Source: Thermoanaerobaculia bacterium (GTDB lineage: Bacteria; Acidobacteriota; Thermoanaerobaculia; Gp7-AA8). Taken from it: a stretch of 64,000 nucleotides of DNA. The notes under the pieces are model-generated. The model had not been told where the DNA came from. It made no database searches and saw only the letters and a program-made list of their open reading frames with translations. Both the position numbers and the translations under genes were made by a program. Positions 23,376-30,064 of this stretch are shown here, in pieces. Positions within the stretch are counted from its first letter, which is position 1, and the number at the start of each line of letters is the position of its first letter. The stretch is from the NCBI GenBank assembly GCA_017883205.1, contig JADGNZ010000018.1, positions 1-64,000 of the forward strand. The letters run 5' to 3'.

Positions 23376-24643
23376 GCGGCGAGCGCGAGAAGGAAGAGCG
23401 CCGGTGCAGCAAGATGCATCAATAACCGGTTGGCTGTCACGGCGATCAGGTCGGTGACGACCCAGTCCGTTGCGACGTAGACGCCGCAGTAGACGGCGAG
23501 CATCGACGCGATCACTGCAATCGCAATCGTGGCAGCACGGCGATCGACGCGGATCGCGAGTACTGCCGCGAGGATGACGGCAACCCAGAAGGCGCCCCAG
23601 CTCGAGAAGGCGATCATGTGCCGCGGAAATGCGGCCAGTGCGGCGCGCAGATTGGCCAGCTTCTCCGGAATCGTCGGCAACATGCGGACGAAATTCTCTT
23701 CGTCGCCTGCTGGGATGCGCGCTCGCCAGATCAGAAGCGCGACTGCGGCGACTGCGGCGAGGATGGCGGGGGTCACGATCCGCTTGCGAAAGACGAATGC
23801 TCCGATCAGAAGAAAGACCAGCGCGAAGGGCAGTCCTTCACTCTTCGTGAGGATGAGGAAGACGAGCCAGAGACCGAAGCGAATCTCGCGGTAGGGTGCT
23901 GGCGCGGTATCGCGGTCTCGCCGCGGCAACGTCTCCCCGACTAACTCGAAGAACGCGCCTGCGGCGAACGCGGCGACGGCGATGTCGTTGTATGCCGATA
24001 GCGCGCCTCCTTCGGTGGCAACGGCAAACTGCGGAATCCAGACCAGCAGCGCTGCGCACCACGCACCTGCTGCTGGCGAGACGAGATTCGTGATCCGCTC
24101 GCGCACGAGAAGTGCGAGTGCGGCGAGGAAGCCGACGTAAAGCCAGCGAAGGTGACGGTCGTCGAGATCGTGCGCGAGTCCCAGAATCACCGCTCCGTCG
24201 ATCGGAATCAGCAGCGGGTATTGATTGCGTGGATCGAGCGTGGCGCCTTGAAAGAACGGCCCGTCGATTGAGCGCTCGTGGGCAATCCCCTTCGCCTTCA
24301 ATACCCAGAACGCACGGCCATCGAAGTCGTTGAGGGGCGTGACGGCGGCAATCAGCGCAAGAACGACCAACGGAATGGCCATCGCGATTGTGGGGAGTGG
24401 GGAGTGGGGAGTGGGGTGTGGGATGTCTCTCTTGTGATTGCGATAAGTCCACACGGCGACGCCGATGCTCCCAATCAGAACCAGCGCGAGCGCTGCAACC
24501 AATGGCAGGTGCACGACGCCGGCGAAGAAGAGGATCGTGCCGACGAGGCCCGCGCCGAAGAGGAAGGCCTCGCCCCAGCTTCGCCGGGCGACGCTCCAAC
24601 CGACAAGCGGGAAGAGGAAGAGCGTGATAAATAGACCGATCAT
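23345..24643 (-). CDS. Polytopic membrane protein, GT-C glycosyltransferase-like
   Basis: This 432-residue protein has ten or more hydrophobic segments. Between the first helices and the membrane core is NDFDGRAFWVLKAKG, reminiscent of the first extracytoplasmic loop of GT-C/ArnT-like glycosyltransferases, where an Asp binds the lipid-linked sugar. Residues about 74-84 (HPTPHSPLPT) come from a translated G-run repeat. It is the last gene of an ATGA-coupled operon behind panD and the secreted protein at 24640-25695. The glycosyltransferase call is a topology-based suggestion only. Confidence 0.6.
   Translation of the reverse strand: MIGLFITLFLFPLVGWSVARRSWGEAFLFGAGLVGTILFFAGVVHLPLVAALALVLIGSIGVAVWTYRNHKRDIPHPTPHSPLPTIAMAIPLVVLALIAAVTPLNDFDGRAFWVLKAKGIAHERSIDGPFFQGATLDPRNQYPLLIPIDGAVILGLAHDLDDRHLRWLYVGFLAALALLVRERITNLVSPAAGAWCAALLVWIPQFAVATEGGALSAYNDIAVAAFAAGAFFELVGETLPRRDRDTAPAPYREIRFGLWLVFLILTKSEGLPFALVFLLIGAFVFRKRIVTPAILAAVAAVALLIWRARIPAGDEENFVRMLPTIPEKLANLRAALAAFPRHMIAFSSWGAFWVAVILAAVLAIRVDRRAATIAIAVIASMLAVYCGVYVATDWVVTDLIAVTANRLLMHLAAPALFLLALAAQWWTRTKSM
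24391..24422. repeat. G-run repeat inside the GT-C-like gene
   Basis: The plus strand reads four GGGGAGT-type units in tandem, a strong G-quadruplex candidate. The gene runs on the minus strand, so the mRNA is C-rich here and is read as a Pro/His/Thr linker in a cytoplasmic or periplasmic loop between helices 3 and 4. Confidence 0.75.
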
Positions 24644-25695
24644 GGGTTTGGTCGGGGCTCCGGCCAGTAAAAGTCGGTTTTGCCATTCAGCTCGCGCGTC
24701 GTGACGAAGGCATACACATTCCCGCTGACGTCCGGAATCGCGCTGATCGGTTTCGTCACGATCGCATGCGGCATGATCGGGATCGTTTCGGCGCCGACGG
24801 TAGTCACAGCGATCGAATCGCCGGGGTTGAGAAGAAAGAGTTTGGCGTCGCGATGGAGGGGCGCCTGCGGAATGCGCGTGGCGAACGGCTTCACATTCGG
24901 CAGCCGCGTCGCGTCGGCACGTCCTCGATTGACGAAATAGAACGCGGTGCGCAGCGGAAGGCGTGACTCAACCTGTATCCAGCCGCTCTCCATGACGCCG
25001 TAGAGTTGATAGACGAGGTCGTAGTACGAAAGGGTCTCTCCGGGCGCGATCCGCAGCGTCCGGCTCACTCCTTTCGGCCAGAACGTCATGCGTACTTCGT
25101 TACTGAATGGGCCGATTCCATCGGCCAGCGCGCTGCGTGGCCAGGAGTCGTTCAGATCGGCGAGCGTCGCCTCGATGACAAACGTCTCCGGCGCGGCACC
25201 ATCCAGCGAGGCCGCGATCGGCAGAACGAACGACGTGGCCGACTCGCTCAACTGCGGTGCGGCGACGACGCGGTGTCCCGCGCGAAGATCGCGGTCGCGG
25301 AGAACTTCGTATGAGGTCCGCTCCGTCTTTTCCGAAGTCACCGCCAGGATCGTCTTCGGCCGTGTCGGATCGGGAGCGGCGTTTCGATAGTCGTTGCGTC
25401 CGGCATAAAGTCTCGCGCGGATCGGGTACAGATAGTAGTTCGCGAAGATGGCCGCCTCGGTATCGCGAATGCCAAGGACCAGCGCGACCGGCTCTTTTTT
25501 CGGAAGCGTTCTGCGCAGCGATTGGATCGATGCGTACCACGCTCCCATCTGCCGCTCTCTTCGCGAGTCGTACGACAGCGGCAACAGCGTCAACGCTTCG
25601 CGCGTGCGTGCGACCAATCGGGGCAACGTCGTGGCTGCGAGGGAAAGCAACAGCAGCGCGCAAAGGACGCGCGGAATCAACGAGTAGCTCCTCAT
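24640..25695 (-). CDS. Predicted membrane-anchored or secreted protein, unknown
   Basis: The 351-residue product opens with a signal anchor (MRSYSLIPRVLCALLLLSLA). The remainder is extracytoplasmic, with mixed alpha/beta character and no further membrane helix. A pair of beta-rich segments with APGETLSYYDLVYQLYGV and LFLLNPGDSIAVTTVGAE is seen toward the C-terminus. I do not recognise the family. It overlaps both neighbours by ATGA (panD upstream, GT-C-like protein downstream), so the three should be translated together. It may modify or present the product of the GT-C-like partner. Confidence 0.62.
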   Translation of the reverse strand: MRSYSLIPRVLCALLLLSLAATTLPRLVARTREALTLLPLSYDSRRERQMGAWYASIQSLRRTLPKKEPVALVLGIRDTEAAIFANYYLYPIRARLYAGRNDYRNAAPDPTRPKTILAVTSEKTERTSYEVLRDRDLRAGHRVVAAPQLSESATSFVLPIAASLDGAAPETFVIEATLADLNDSWPRSALADGIGPFSNEVRMTFWPKGVSRTLRIAPGETLSYYDLVYQLYGVMESGWIQVESRLPLRTAFYFVNRGRADATRLPNVKPFATRIPQAPLHRDAKLFLLNPGDSIAVTTVGAETIPIMPHAIVTKPISAIPDVSGNVYAFVTTRELNGKTDFYWPEPRPNP

Positions 25696-26051
25696 CCTTC
25701 GCCGACCGATACGACATGATTGTTCGCGCCCAGGGTCACGATGCGCGGCTTGTGCGCGATGGTCTGTCCTTCGTGAAACGTGGCGAAGGAAAGGATGCTG
25801 ATCGTGTCGCCCGTCCGCACCGGCGAGCGCGCGCCCACATGCAACGCGATCTCGCCGCTCCCCTCCTGCGCCGGCTCGATCCACGTGCGAAACCGCTCGC
25901 CCGTGCCGGTGTTGACGACTTCGACCTCCTCGAACGGCAGGATCTCCGCAGCGTGAAGAACGAAGGCATCAACGCGCAGCGAGACAGGCCAAAGTGTGGC
26001 CGCGCTGGTGACGATGGCGTTCTGAATCACTGCATGGAGAAGGGTGCGCAT
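25692..26051 (-). CDS. panD: PanD-like aspartate 1-decarboxylase, divergent active site
   Basis: The 119-residue protein aligns along its length with PanD, the pyruvoyl enzyme that makes beta-alanine from aspartate for pantothenate. Preserved are the N-terminal MRT, the Ser at the self-cleavage site (WPVSLRVD), ERFRT with the Arg that binds aspartate, and GSGEIALHVGAR. Changed relative to E. coli are the active-site Lys9 (Val here), His11 (Gln), Tyr22 (Trp), Gly24 before the cleaved Ser (Val), Tyr58 (Trp) and Asn72 (His). panC and panB lie downstream on the same strand side, supporting the pathway. Activity is uncertain. Confidence 0.72.
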   Translation of the reverse strand: MRTLLHAVIQNAIVTSAATLWPVSLRVDAFVLHAAEILPFEEVEVVNTGTGERFRTWIEPAQEGSGEIALHVGARSPVRTGDTISILSFATFHEGQTIAHKPRIVTLGANNHVVSVGEG

Positions 26052-26222: not shown

Positions 26223-26401
26223 TACGTGCCGCTCGTTAGGTAGTTAAGTTAGTTCAGTTAGTGCGGGAGTCGCTGATCGGGAGTCGGGAGTCGGAGAGAA
26301 CAATTCTTCTGCTCACACACCAGACATCCTACGCCCGGCGCCTGTTCGATCACCGCCTTGGGCTGCTCAATCTGTCGTTTGTCCTCTTCATGATCTGGCT
26401 T

Positions 26402-26956
26402 CAGATCTTGAATCGGCGTTTTGACGCTCGAAGGTCTGGCGCCCAGATCTTCAAAAGGGATTTTGGCTCTTCAAGATCTGGCGCCCAGATCTTCAAAAGG
26501 CTTTTTGACACTTCAAGATCTGTCGCTCAGATCTTCAAAAGGGATTTTGGCTCTTCAAGATCTGACGCTCAGATCTTCAAAAGGGATTTTGGCTCTTCAA
26601 GATCTGGCGCCCAGATCTTCAAAAGGGATTTTGGCTCTTCCAGATCTGGCGCCCAGATCTTCAAAAGGGATTTTGGCTCTTCAAGATCTGGCGCCCAGAT
26701 CTTCAAAAGGGATTTTGGCTCTTCAAGATCTGGCGCCCAGATCTTCAAAAGGGATTTTGGCTCTTCAAGATCTGGCGCTCAGATCTTCAAAAGGGATTTT
26801 GGCTCTTCAAGATCTGGCGCCCAGATCTTCAAAAGGCTTTTTGACACTTCAAGATCTGGCGCTCAGATCTTCAAAAGGCGTTTTGGCTCTTCAAGAGCTG
26901 ACGCTCAGATCTTCAAAAGGCATTCTGACACTTCAAGATCTGGCGCCCAGATCTTC
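26402..26956. repeat. Thirteen-unit 42-bp tandem hairpin array
   Basis: Thirteen units of exactly 42 bp run from 26402 to 26947, with a partial unit to 26956. Each contains a palindrome AAGATCTGG-CGC-CCAGATCTT and the spacer CAAAAGGGATTTTGGCTCTT, in some units CTTTTTGACACTT instead. Units 5-10 are nearly identical; units 1, 3, 4, 11, 12 and 13 carry base changes. Two plus-strand frames stay open through it because the unit has no stops there, but no ribosome-binding site, conserved protein or codon-biased drift is visible, so I treat it as non-coding. It lies in a 1.2 kb gene-free interval. Confidence 0.93.
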
Positions 26957-27271
26957 GCATGTCGGAGGGCCTTCTCGAAAACTGGCCGGCGTACTTTCAT
27001 GCGGCCGAAAACCTTTTGAAGGTCTGCGCTTCAGACCTTCAGACCGGTCCGGCAGATCTTCCCGGAGGAGAAAGGCTGCTGGCAAAACGAAACCGACAGT
27101 TGCTCGGGCGGAACGGACAGCGGCAGAGGTGAGGAGGATCCTCGGGCTCGCCGCGAGGCGGGTTGCGGCGCTGCAAGCGCCTCACGCAAAGACGTTTAGG
27201 CGTATCTGCGGGCATGGAATTGTCTCGAAGACGTTCATCCCGCTCGCTCGGAACACACTGCGGCAAGTTCT
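26957..27271. other. Gene-free flank of the array with a degenerate unit
   Basis: This stretch up to the panC stop holds one diverged hairpin, GAAGGTCTG-CGCTT-CAGACCTTC (27018-27040), of the same design as the array units. The remainder, including several partial AGATCTTC and CCGGTCC motifs, shows no supported gene. Sequence 26223-26401 before the array is likewise without a gene and carries GGGAGTCGGGAGTCGG, a motif shared with 63000-63018. Confidence 0.6.
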
Positions 27272-28144
27272 CTACAAGTGTGAGAAATGCAGGCTAGTTC
27301 GTGCAATCCGCACGTTGTCGATCAATCGCGTTCGTCCCAGCTTCACCGCGCCGGCGAGGAGGATGTCGCGTCGAAAGTCTGCGGGCGCGAGGAATGTCTC
27401 GGCATCGATGACCGCCAGGTAGTCAATCGTCAAGCCGGGGCTCTCTTCGATCGCCTTCCGCATCAATGCCTCGATAGCTACGCTGTCGTGAATGCCTCGG
27501 CGGATCGCCACTTCGCCGGCGCGCAGTGCTCGATAAAGCGCTGGAGCAATCGCTCGCTCATCGGCGGAGAGATAGCTGTTCCGCGATGATCGCGCCAGAT
27601 CATCGTCCTCCCGCGCCGTTTCGGCAAAGACGAGCTTCACGGGGACGTCGAGGTCGCGCACCATCCGTTCGATCACCGCGCATTGCTGCGCGTCTTTGCG
27701 GCCGAAGACGGCGAGGTCGGGCTGCACGATGTTGAGGAGTTTCAAGACGACCGTTGCGACGCCGTCGAAGTGTCCCGGGCGACGTTCGCCTTCGAGTGGC
27801 TGCGCGACAGCGCCGGTGTGGACCAATGTCTGCGATCCCGGCGGGTACATGACGCCGACTGAGGGGAGAAAAAGAAGGTCTACCGCTTTTCCTTCGAGCA
27901 CAGCCTTGTCGCGAGCTTCATCCCGCGGATAGCGCTCGAAGTCCTCATTCGGGCCGAACTGGGTCGGATTGACGAAGATCGACACGACGATGAAGTCCGC
28001 ACCGTTCGTGCGTGCGGTGTCGATGAGCGAGAAGTGCCCATCATGAAGAAATCCCATTGTCGGGATGAAACCGATGGTGCGGCCGGCAACGCGAGCCTTT
28101 GCGATCGCAGCGCGGGTGTCGTCGATGGTTGTCGCCAGGATCAT
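27272..28144 (-). CDS. panC: Pantothenate synthetase
   Basis: PanC joins pantoate and beta-alanine with ATP to make pantothenate. The 290-residue protein has the HIGH-like motif FLHDGHFSL, the FVNPTQFGPNEDFERYPR segment, GERRPGHFDGVATVVLKL and the KMSKS-like region SSRNSYL. The residues before the latter read REDDDLARSSRN, where most homologues have REPDGLAMSSRN. panB follows at 28355 on the same strand upstream, separated by a 211-bp interval full of CACAGACA repeats. PanD lies 1.2 kb downstream. Confidence 0.95.
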   Translation of the reverse strand: MILATTIDDTRAAIAKARVAGRTIGFIPTMGFLHDGHFSLIDTARTNGADFIVVSIFVNPTQFGPNEDFERYPRDEARDKAVLEGKAVDLLFLPSVGVMYPPGSQTLVHTGAVAQPLEGERRPGHFDGVATVVLKLLNIVQPDLAVFGRKDAQQCAVIERMVRDLDVPVKLVFAETAREDDDLARSSRNSYLSADERAIAPALYRALRAGEVAIRRGIHDSVAIEALMRKAIEESPGLTIDYLAVIDAETFLAPADFRRDILLAGAVKLGRTRLIDNVRIARTSLHFSHL

Positions 28145-28164: not shown

Positions 28165-28329
28165 AGCACAGACAAGAGTGTCTGTGCCACACCAAGCCCG
28201 GCTCCGAGGTGTGTTTGTGCCCAAAGCCATGTGGCATGGCACAGACACTCTTGTCTGTGCCACACCAAGCCCGGCTCCGAGGTGTGTTTGTGCCCAAAGC
28301 CATGTGGCACAGACACTCTTGTCTGTGCT
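28165..28329. repeat. Compound CACAGACA repeat between panB and panC
   Basis: Three GCACAGACA/TGTCTGTGC palindromes alternate with two copies of CCACACCAAGCCCGGCTCCG-type sequence in a direct repeat of 73 bp. The outer ends match the element at 12936-13002. It fills almost the whole interval between two pantothenate genes on the same strand and would form a large structure in a shared transcript. Confidence 0.85.
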
Positions 28330-29362: not shown

Positions 29363-30064
29363 TCAGGATCCAAGCGGTACGTAGTACTGCGTGCCCTTCT
29401 TCGCATTGCGAATCTGCTCGATGAGCTGATCGAAATGCTCGGGCGTGTTGACGAAATCGATCTCGTTTGTGTTCACGACCAGCAATGGCGTCTCGTCGTA
29501 CCGGTAAAAGTAGTGTGAGTACGCCTCGCTGAGCTCTTTCAGGTAATCCTGCGAGATCGACTTCTCGTAAGCCCGTCCGCGCTTCTTCACGCGTTTGACT
29601 AGTGTATCAAGCGAAGCCTGCAGATAGATAACCAGATCCGGCTTCGGCACGCTGTCGTACAGGAGCTCGTACATCCGGTTGTAGATCATCAGCTCCGAGT
29701 CTTCCAGCGTCATGTACGCGAAGATCTTGTCTTTCGGAAACGAGTAGTCCGCAAGGATCAGCTCGGTGAAGAGGTCGCGCTGCGAGATCGATCGCTGCTG
29801 GTCGTAGCGCGACAGTAGAAAGAAGAGCTGGCAGCGGAAGGCCGCGCCCCGCTTGTCTTTGTAAAAATCGGCGAGGAACGGGTTGTCGACATCCTCGAGA
29901 ATCTTCGTCCCGCGAAAGCGCTTGGCGAGGAGATTCACCAGCGACGTCTTCCCGACGCCGATCGGCCCCTCGACAGCGATATGACGAAACGGCAGCGGCG
30001 GCACGACAGGAAGGATAAAGGATGAAGGATGAAGGATGAAGAAAATGAGCGTGACGGCCTTCAT
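29363..30064 (-). CDS. Deoxynucleoside kinase (dGK/dCK type)
   Basis: The 233-residue protein phosphorylates deoxynucleosides for nucleotide salvage. P-loop GPIGVGKTSLVNLLA, the DRSIxSQRD-like RSISQRDLFTE region, and the lid RVKKRGRAYEKSIS are those of bacterial dGK/dCK kinases. The first ~19 residues (MKAVTLIFFILHPSSFILP) are encoded by the TCATCCTTC repeat and have no counterpart in the family, which starts near FRHIAVEG. I use ATG 30064 because GGAAGGATG precedes it; GTG 30004 is the alternative. The gene lies head to head with the M16 pair. Confidence 0.9.
   Translation of the reverse strand: MKAVTLIFFILHPSSFILPVVPPLPFRHIAVEGPIGVGKTSLVNLLAKRFRGTKILEDVDNPFLADFYKDKRGAAFRCQLFFLLSRYDQQRSISQRDLFTELILADYSFPKDKIFAYMTLEDSELMIYNRMYELLYDSVPKPDLVIYLQASLDTLVKRVKKRGRAYEKSISQDYLKELSEAYSHYFYRYDETPLLVVNTNEIDFVNTPEHFDQLIEQIRNAKKGTQYYVPLGS

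Follow-up and report, generated by a model that had tools for sequence, protein, structure and literature searches.

Phased dyad arrays linked to an undescribed protein family in two Acidobacteriota classes point to a possible two-part DNA–protein system

What is a long tandem array of palindromic units doing between the panC and panD genes of a Thermoanaerobaculia soil bacterium? The array lies in a stretch of 64,000 nucleotides (hereafter the window), for which an initial annotation, made from the letters alone, had described an exact 42-bp period in 13 units, each with a perfect 9-bp palindrome around a CGC loop, in a gene-free interval. TRF places the array at 26384-26956 (strand unassigned) with a period of 42 bp, 13.7 copies, 90% matches, no indels and a score of 880; 13 full units occupy 26402-26947, and a closing half-site extends to 26956. 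The period and coordinates stand as described, but the sequence is not exact, with 9 of 42 columns variable among units 2-13. Likewise, the three-base CGC loop is present in all 13 units, but the 9-bp arms are perfect in only seven, the remaining six having one mismatch. The array shares regular palindromic repeats with CRISPR loci, yet its units run head to tail with no variable spacers, and its bordering genes are panC and panD; the initial judgment that it is not a CRISPR array was sound. Each 42-bp unit consists of the dyad AAGATCTGG-CGC-CCAGATCTT and, about 21 bp away in its second half, a weaker dyad seen by eye, CAAAA-GGGA-TTTTG, which makes the real step of the array approximately 21 bp. 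The window has no Rfam match and no tRNA.

Four further arrays of the same unit occur in the bacterium's own genome (G000; 6.37 Mb, 105 contigs), on contigs C19, C44, C49 and C65. The C19 array lies 115 bp before an intact gene: its 3' flank leads into a 164-codon ORF preceded by a clean Shine-Dalgarno site. Several of the five arrays have flanks in common, which break off at differing positions within the gene. A search for the unit in other genomes, proposed at the outset, was run, and among 396 genomes of the phylum AAGATCTGNCGCNCAGATCTT occurs at up to one mismatch in the own genome only, with no stretch in a collection of genome contigs. At two mismatches, G003 has one match, apparently in coding sequence, and G009 has one, in a repeat that is related to this unit but distinct from it. 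When viral contigs were scanned with a 15-mer, 51 stretches each had a single match, which we took as chance. On contig C50 of the own genome (position 35412; locus L083), an isolated AAGATCTGGCAGCCAGATCTT palindrome stands amid several CCATGGAC palindromes.

The flanks of the window array tie it to these sister copies. The 5' flank (26261..26432, + strand) is common to the C19 and C44 arrays at 83-84% identity. Its first 40 bp or so are a dispersed genome repeat; positions 26261-26300 are a GGGAGTCGCTGATCGGGAGTCGG-type repeat, in which most of the 70 genome matches to the 233-bp 5' flank fall. The 3' flank (26957..27246, + strand), which contains a further hairpin, CCTTTTGAAGGTCTGCGCTTCAGACCTTCAG, is common to C19 (to ≈27246), C44 (to ≈27210) and C49 (to ≈27101) at 76-79% identity. 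The array itself carries no sign of a protein, in keeping with the initial annotation, but within this flank, at 27060..27242 (+ strand), lies the decayed 5' part of a protein gene, with 54% identity to the C19 query over residues 7-67. The ORF through this remnant matches the family profile described below with an E value of 1.3e-5. Because the remnant retains 61 codons at this identity and lacks the GTG start that follows the Shine-Dalgarno site in C19, we read the window array as a copy whose gene part has decayed.

On either side of the array lie panC (pantoate-beta-alanine ligase, 27272..28144, − strand) and panD (aspartate decarboxylase, 25692..26051, − strand). The gap between them is ≈1.2 kb here; two congeneric species have a gap of ≈0.1 kb with no such array in it, so the window array is most simply a lineage addition. 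The panC-panD gap of one same-genus genome, G002 (L171, ≈2340-2480), has an inverted repeat of its own, and the gap therefore seems prone to repeat insertion.

The C19 ORF, used as a single query, finds 36 matches in its own genome, itself included. A family profile matches 67 sequences in the own genome, 56 and 9 in the same-genus genomes G002 and G001, 29 and 2 in G009 and G016 of the same family, and one, weakly, in G007, with no match in 12 of 18 genomes of the taxonomic family; a two-pattern scan of the collection of genome contigs returned seven loci, all in Acidobacteriota. Compared with Pfam, NCBIfam, PHROGs, PADLOC and PDB sequences, the 36 members gave no convincing match and no recognised DNA-binding, transposase, integrase or replication domain, and profile searches of members matched no RHH or HTH family. 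One member used as a query found nothing in phage and plasmid records, nor did one alignment scan of viral contigs. The existence of this family, together with the second dyad in each unit and the four sister arrays, had escaped the initial annotation, and it changes what the finding is.

Judged by their sequences, the family members look like real proteins under purifying selection: Shine-Dalgarno sites are mostly good, and dN is below dS in all 13 of 13 close gene pairs, with ratios of 0.17-0.67. Two structure models, whose alignment rows came from six relatives, are all-helical at low confidence (mean pLDDT 42 and 47), from which we take helices to be likely and nothing further. Contig ends lie no more than a few hundred bases from many family genes (in the own genome on C2, C9, C17, C22, C27, C29, C30, C37, C72, C82, C92, C100 and others), as if the arrays break the assembly, and the true numbers are thus probably higher. 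In one subfamily, array and family gene are separated by a second conserved ORF, Arg-rich and ≈240 codons long, for which Pfam gave nothing above cut-off (L194, L196, L197, L200, L270-L279 and L285-L289).

How regularly does such an array accompany the gene? Upstream sequence of 1.5 kb or more is available for 93 members in five genomes, and in 77 of these a tandem array lies no farther than 1.8 kb upstream (TRF score of at least 150, any period): 40/45 in the own genome, 18/23 in G002, 15/18 in G009, 4/5 in G001 and 0/2 in G016. By comparison, in a 320-kb control from the own genome an array accompanies 17 of 175 gene starts. These counts draw on 51 of the 67 matched members in the own genome, 25 of 56 in G002, 19 of 29 in G009, 5 of 9 in G001 and 2 of 2 in G016; nine with less than 1.5 kb upstream were omitted from the 93, and L249 is absent. 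They include L192_39435 as array-positive, although its array probably belongs to the upstream neighbor, and this array was excluded from the tests on 92 and 75 arrays given below. Because the members are paralogues, the 93 loci cannot count as independent observations, and a binomial p of 2e-35 overstates the case. We nonetheless regard the linkage of gene and array as well supported.

The linked arrays also have a characteristic step. For the 78 strongest upstream arrays, counted with no period filter and with short-upstream members included, the smallest strong period is 20-22 bp in 55, 41-43 bp in 15, 63-64 bp in four and another value in four, and some members without a TRF array show weaker 21-bp periodicity. 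Arrays of this 21-bp class number 11 in 320 kb of the own genome and two in 140 kb of G009, and none in 260 kb of G010 and G012, relatives that lack the family. A detected family ORF adjoins only one of the 11 arrays in the 320-kb control, and six of 10 gene-less control arrays have at least 15% of their 8-mers in common with some gene-linked array.

The pairing extends beyond the class of the window. In a phylum-wide search, in which seven or eight candidates per genome were scored, five of 396 genomes were matched, and G336 of a second class of Acidobacteriota has a distant homologue (E 2.3e-9). A profile including this homologue matches nine of 162 genomes of that class. At 13 of 14 second-class loci (L352 being the exception), the 400 bp after the stop codon are periodic at a lag of 21 or 42 bp with z > 4, against a background maximum of 3.9 in 624 windows, while none of the 12 testable upstream regions exceeds 3.3. 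A 15th copy, L376, also has its array downstream, for a total of 14 of 15. By eye, many of the second-class 21-mers have an AAnnTT-like core inside locus-specific palindromes. With arrays upstream in one class and downstream in the other, the pairing spans two classes and its side can switch.

Although the pairing persists, the sequences of the arrays do not. Relative to controls in which columns were permuted and periodicity was kept, dyads are in excess with z > 2 in 73 of 92 arrays and z > 3 in 60 of 92, and the commonest spacings between strong dyads are 10.5, 21, 42, 31.5 and 43 bp. Arrays share more than 10% of their 8-mers in nine of 10 paralogue pairs with at least 70% identity, in three of 12 at 50-70% and in one of 443 at lower identity. 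The geometry is kept while sequence turns over, and phasing and dyads mostly persist across loci.

The explanation that we find best, at a little short of an even chance, is that the array serves as a phased platform on double-stranded DNA to which the partner protein would bind, in the manner of a centromere or an operator. A DNA binder acting cooperatively as a dimer would require such dyads, two turns apart, indifferent to strand and retained next to a single protein family. Sites would recur every two helical turns (21 bp; in the window, two alternating dyads per 42 bp), such that bound subunits would stack along the same face of the double helix. The binding protein would most likely be the small helical one encoded beside the arrays, as the linkage suggests, and because site sequences differ from one gene subfamily to the next, a given protein would read the arrays that belong to it. 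Through cooperative binding a phased nucleoprotein filament could then form that would control the partner gene and mark or organize the locus. Since the gene part in the window is broken, protein for the window array would have to come in trans from the intact C19 gene, whose array has the same unit. A binding array was one of three guesses made in the initial annotation, alongside tandem RNA hairpins and a recombination site, and it fits best of the three; we infer the binding itself, the identity of the binder, the filament and any benefit to the cell or the element. Counting against a binding platform, the family has no recognised DNA-binding domain, 19 of 92 arrays are without a clear dyad excess, and many arrays, including most in the 320-kb control, have no adjoining family gene. 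Moreover, array sequences are mostly unrelated between paralogues below ≈70% identity, so recognition of the sites would have to change fast.

The nearest working analogy to such a platform comes from plasmid centromeres, where an array is paired with a binding protein. In ParR-parC and TubR-tubC, as described in available excerpts of PMC5016525, protein dimers stack along consecutive repeats, repressing the operon, and a short-repeat (iteron) array beside a small gene is what we find here as well. In contrast to those systems, the loci described here sit in a chromosome-sized genome, with many paralogues per genome and dyad-symmetric 21-bp steps. The binders in the plasmid systems are ribbon-helix-helix or winged-HTH proteins; here there is no profile match and the structure models are of low confidence. 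The plasmid operons also have an actin- or tubulin-like motor gene, of which none was noticed here, and the second conserved ORF of one subfamily is without a Pfam match above cut-off. We therefore treat the resemblance as an analogy, and the loci as at most candidate members of this group.

The main and strongest rival, which we consider rather unlikely, is a selfish satellite or mobile cassette in which array and gene spread together, the protein serves replication or movement, and gene-less arrays are debris. Several features would follow naturally: the window copy, with its truncated gene, sits as an insertion in the panC-panD gap and is absent in two species of the same genus; five arrays have one unit, and several of their common flanks break off at different gene points; gene-less arrays are common, and six of 10 such controls resemble a gene-linked array. 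However, the family has no transposase, integrase or replication domain and no match in phage or plasmid records (one member) or viral contigs (one scan), and spread requires neither 21-bp phasing nor dyads. An element that spreads and is bound by its own protein would satisfy both the binding-platform and the selfish reading. REP/RAYT systems, too, combine dispersed palindromes with an associated gene (excerpts of PMC3733652), but those palindromes are single or paired hairpins as opposed to tandem phased arrays, and no Y1/HUH transposase match was found in Pfam for the 36 members.

Less probable still, and in our judgment unlikely, is that the arrays are an architectural feature of the DNA (bending, cruciforms or supercoil sinks) or a product of slippage, with no specific partner and with proximity to the gene otherwise caused. 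Turnover of sequence under a constant architecture and the many arrays without a gene would suit this explanation. It fits poorly with a linkage of gene and 21-bp array that holds in both classes, the array lying before the gene in one and after it in the other, and with the absence of 21-bp arrays in the sampled sequence of gene-lacking relatives.

An action through RNA appears more doubtful. Tandem repeats directly upstream of a small gene recall type III toxin–antitoxin systems such as ToxIN and CptIN (excerpts of PMC8860590), and by that model the array would be transcribed to a repeat RNA that binds or neutralizes the protein, which we hold to be quite improbable. The suggestion in the initial annotation that the array is a source of RNA hairpins was not borne out: only 35 of 76 related arrays fold better on the strand of the gene (p = 0.37). 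Mismatches in the dyads show no excess of G.T (180, versus 292 A.C), and the variable stem pair in the five sister arrays (G-C 16, G-T 10, A-T 4, A-C 3 and T-T 1) shows no covariation. These negative results disfavor an RNA reading; the tests are indirect, and RNA from the other strand may be made at some loci. In addition, no terminator-like site was found at the one locus searched, L096 5900-6700, which holds the C19 array and gene start, and the 36 members have no match to the ToxN, CptN or TenpN toxin families in Pfam, NCBIfam or PADLOC. The loci described here further differ from type III systems in having no endoribonuclease match, arrays downstream of the gene in the second class and far more copies per genome.

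That the array encodes a protein of 14-residue repeats (7 × 2) is very improbable: two + frames are open through the window array, and arrays have on average more open frames than permuted ones (2.09 versus 1.16 of 6), but 19 of 75 arrays have no open frame, 28 of 75 have none on the strand of the gene, the best period is 20, 22, 41 or 43 bp in 16 of 76, which breaks frames, and Pfam gives nothing above cut-off for the window array. The initial caution that coding was not shown was well placed. Matches of the ORF through the array to HTH_91 and DUF2122 fall below cut-off and were taken as low-complexity. We gave no weight to the diversity by codon position in the window array (0.069/0.095/0.046), the most variable class being the third position in one of three frames.

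The arrays that accompany this undescribed family in two Acidobacteriota classes thus point to a two-part DNA–protein system. Tentatively, and with slightly less assurance than we attach to the binding platform, we propose an undescribed class of chromosomal two-part Acidobacteriota loci in which a large family of paralogous small helical proteins would each have a private phased dyad lattice, constant in geometry, whose sequence turns over faster than the protein. Such pairs, dozens of them in some genomes, would act as self-specific nucleoprotein addresses, a bacterial counterpart of fast-evolving satellite and centromere systems. We found no account of such loci in the literature covered on bacterial phased and satellite repeats and repeat-associated proteins, available partly as excerpts and with most subscription papers and all preprints outside it. 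If the proposal is true, some bacteria have DNA lattices by the dozen, each specific to its locus and paired with an unnamed protein of its own; the 11 arrays in 320 kb of sampled sequence amount to ≈1 per 30 kb. A constant geometry with free change of sequence would be nearer to eukaryotic satellite DNA than to known bacterial repeats, and the proteins would form an uncharacterised family missed by current libraries. Whether each protein reads its own array only, and with what consequence for the chromosome, is directly testable.

Two other kinds of repeat were observed in the window. Between panB and panC, at 28179-28328, a 73-bp unit in 2.1 copies has palindrome-like ends, TGTCTGTGCCACA, and looks like a dispersed REP-type repeat. 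Heptamer tandem repeats of GTGGGGA and GAAGGAT lie at 24390-24422 and 30010-30041.
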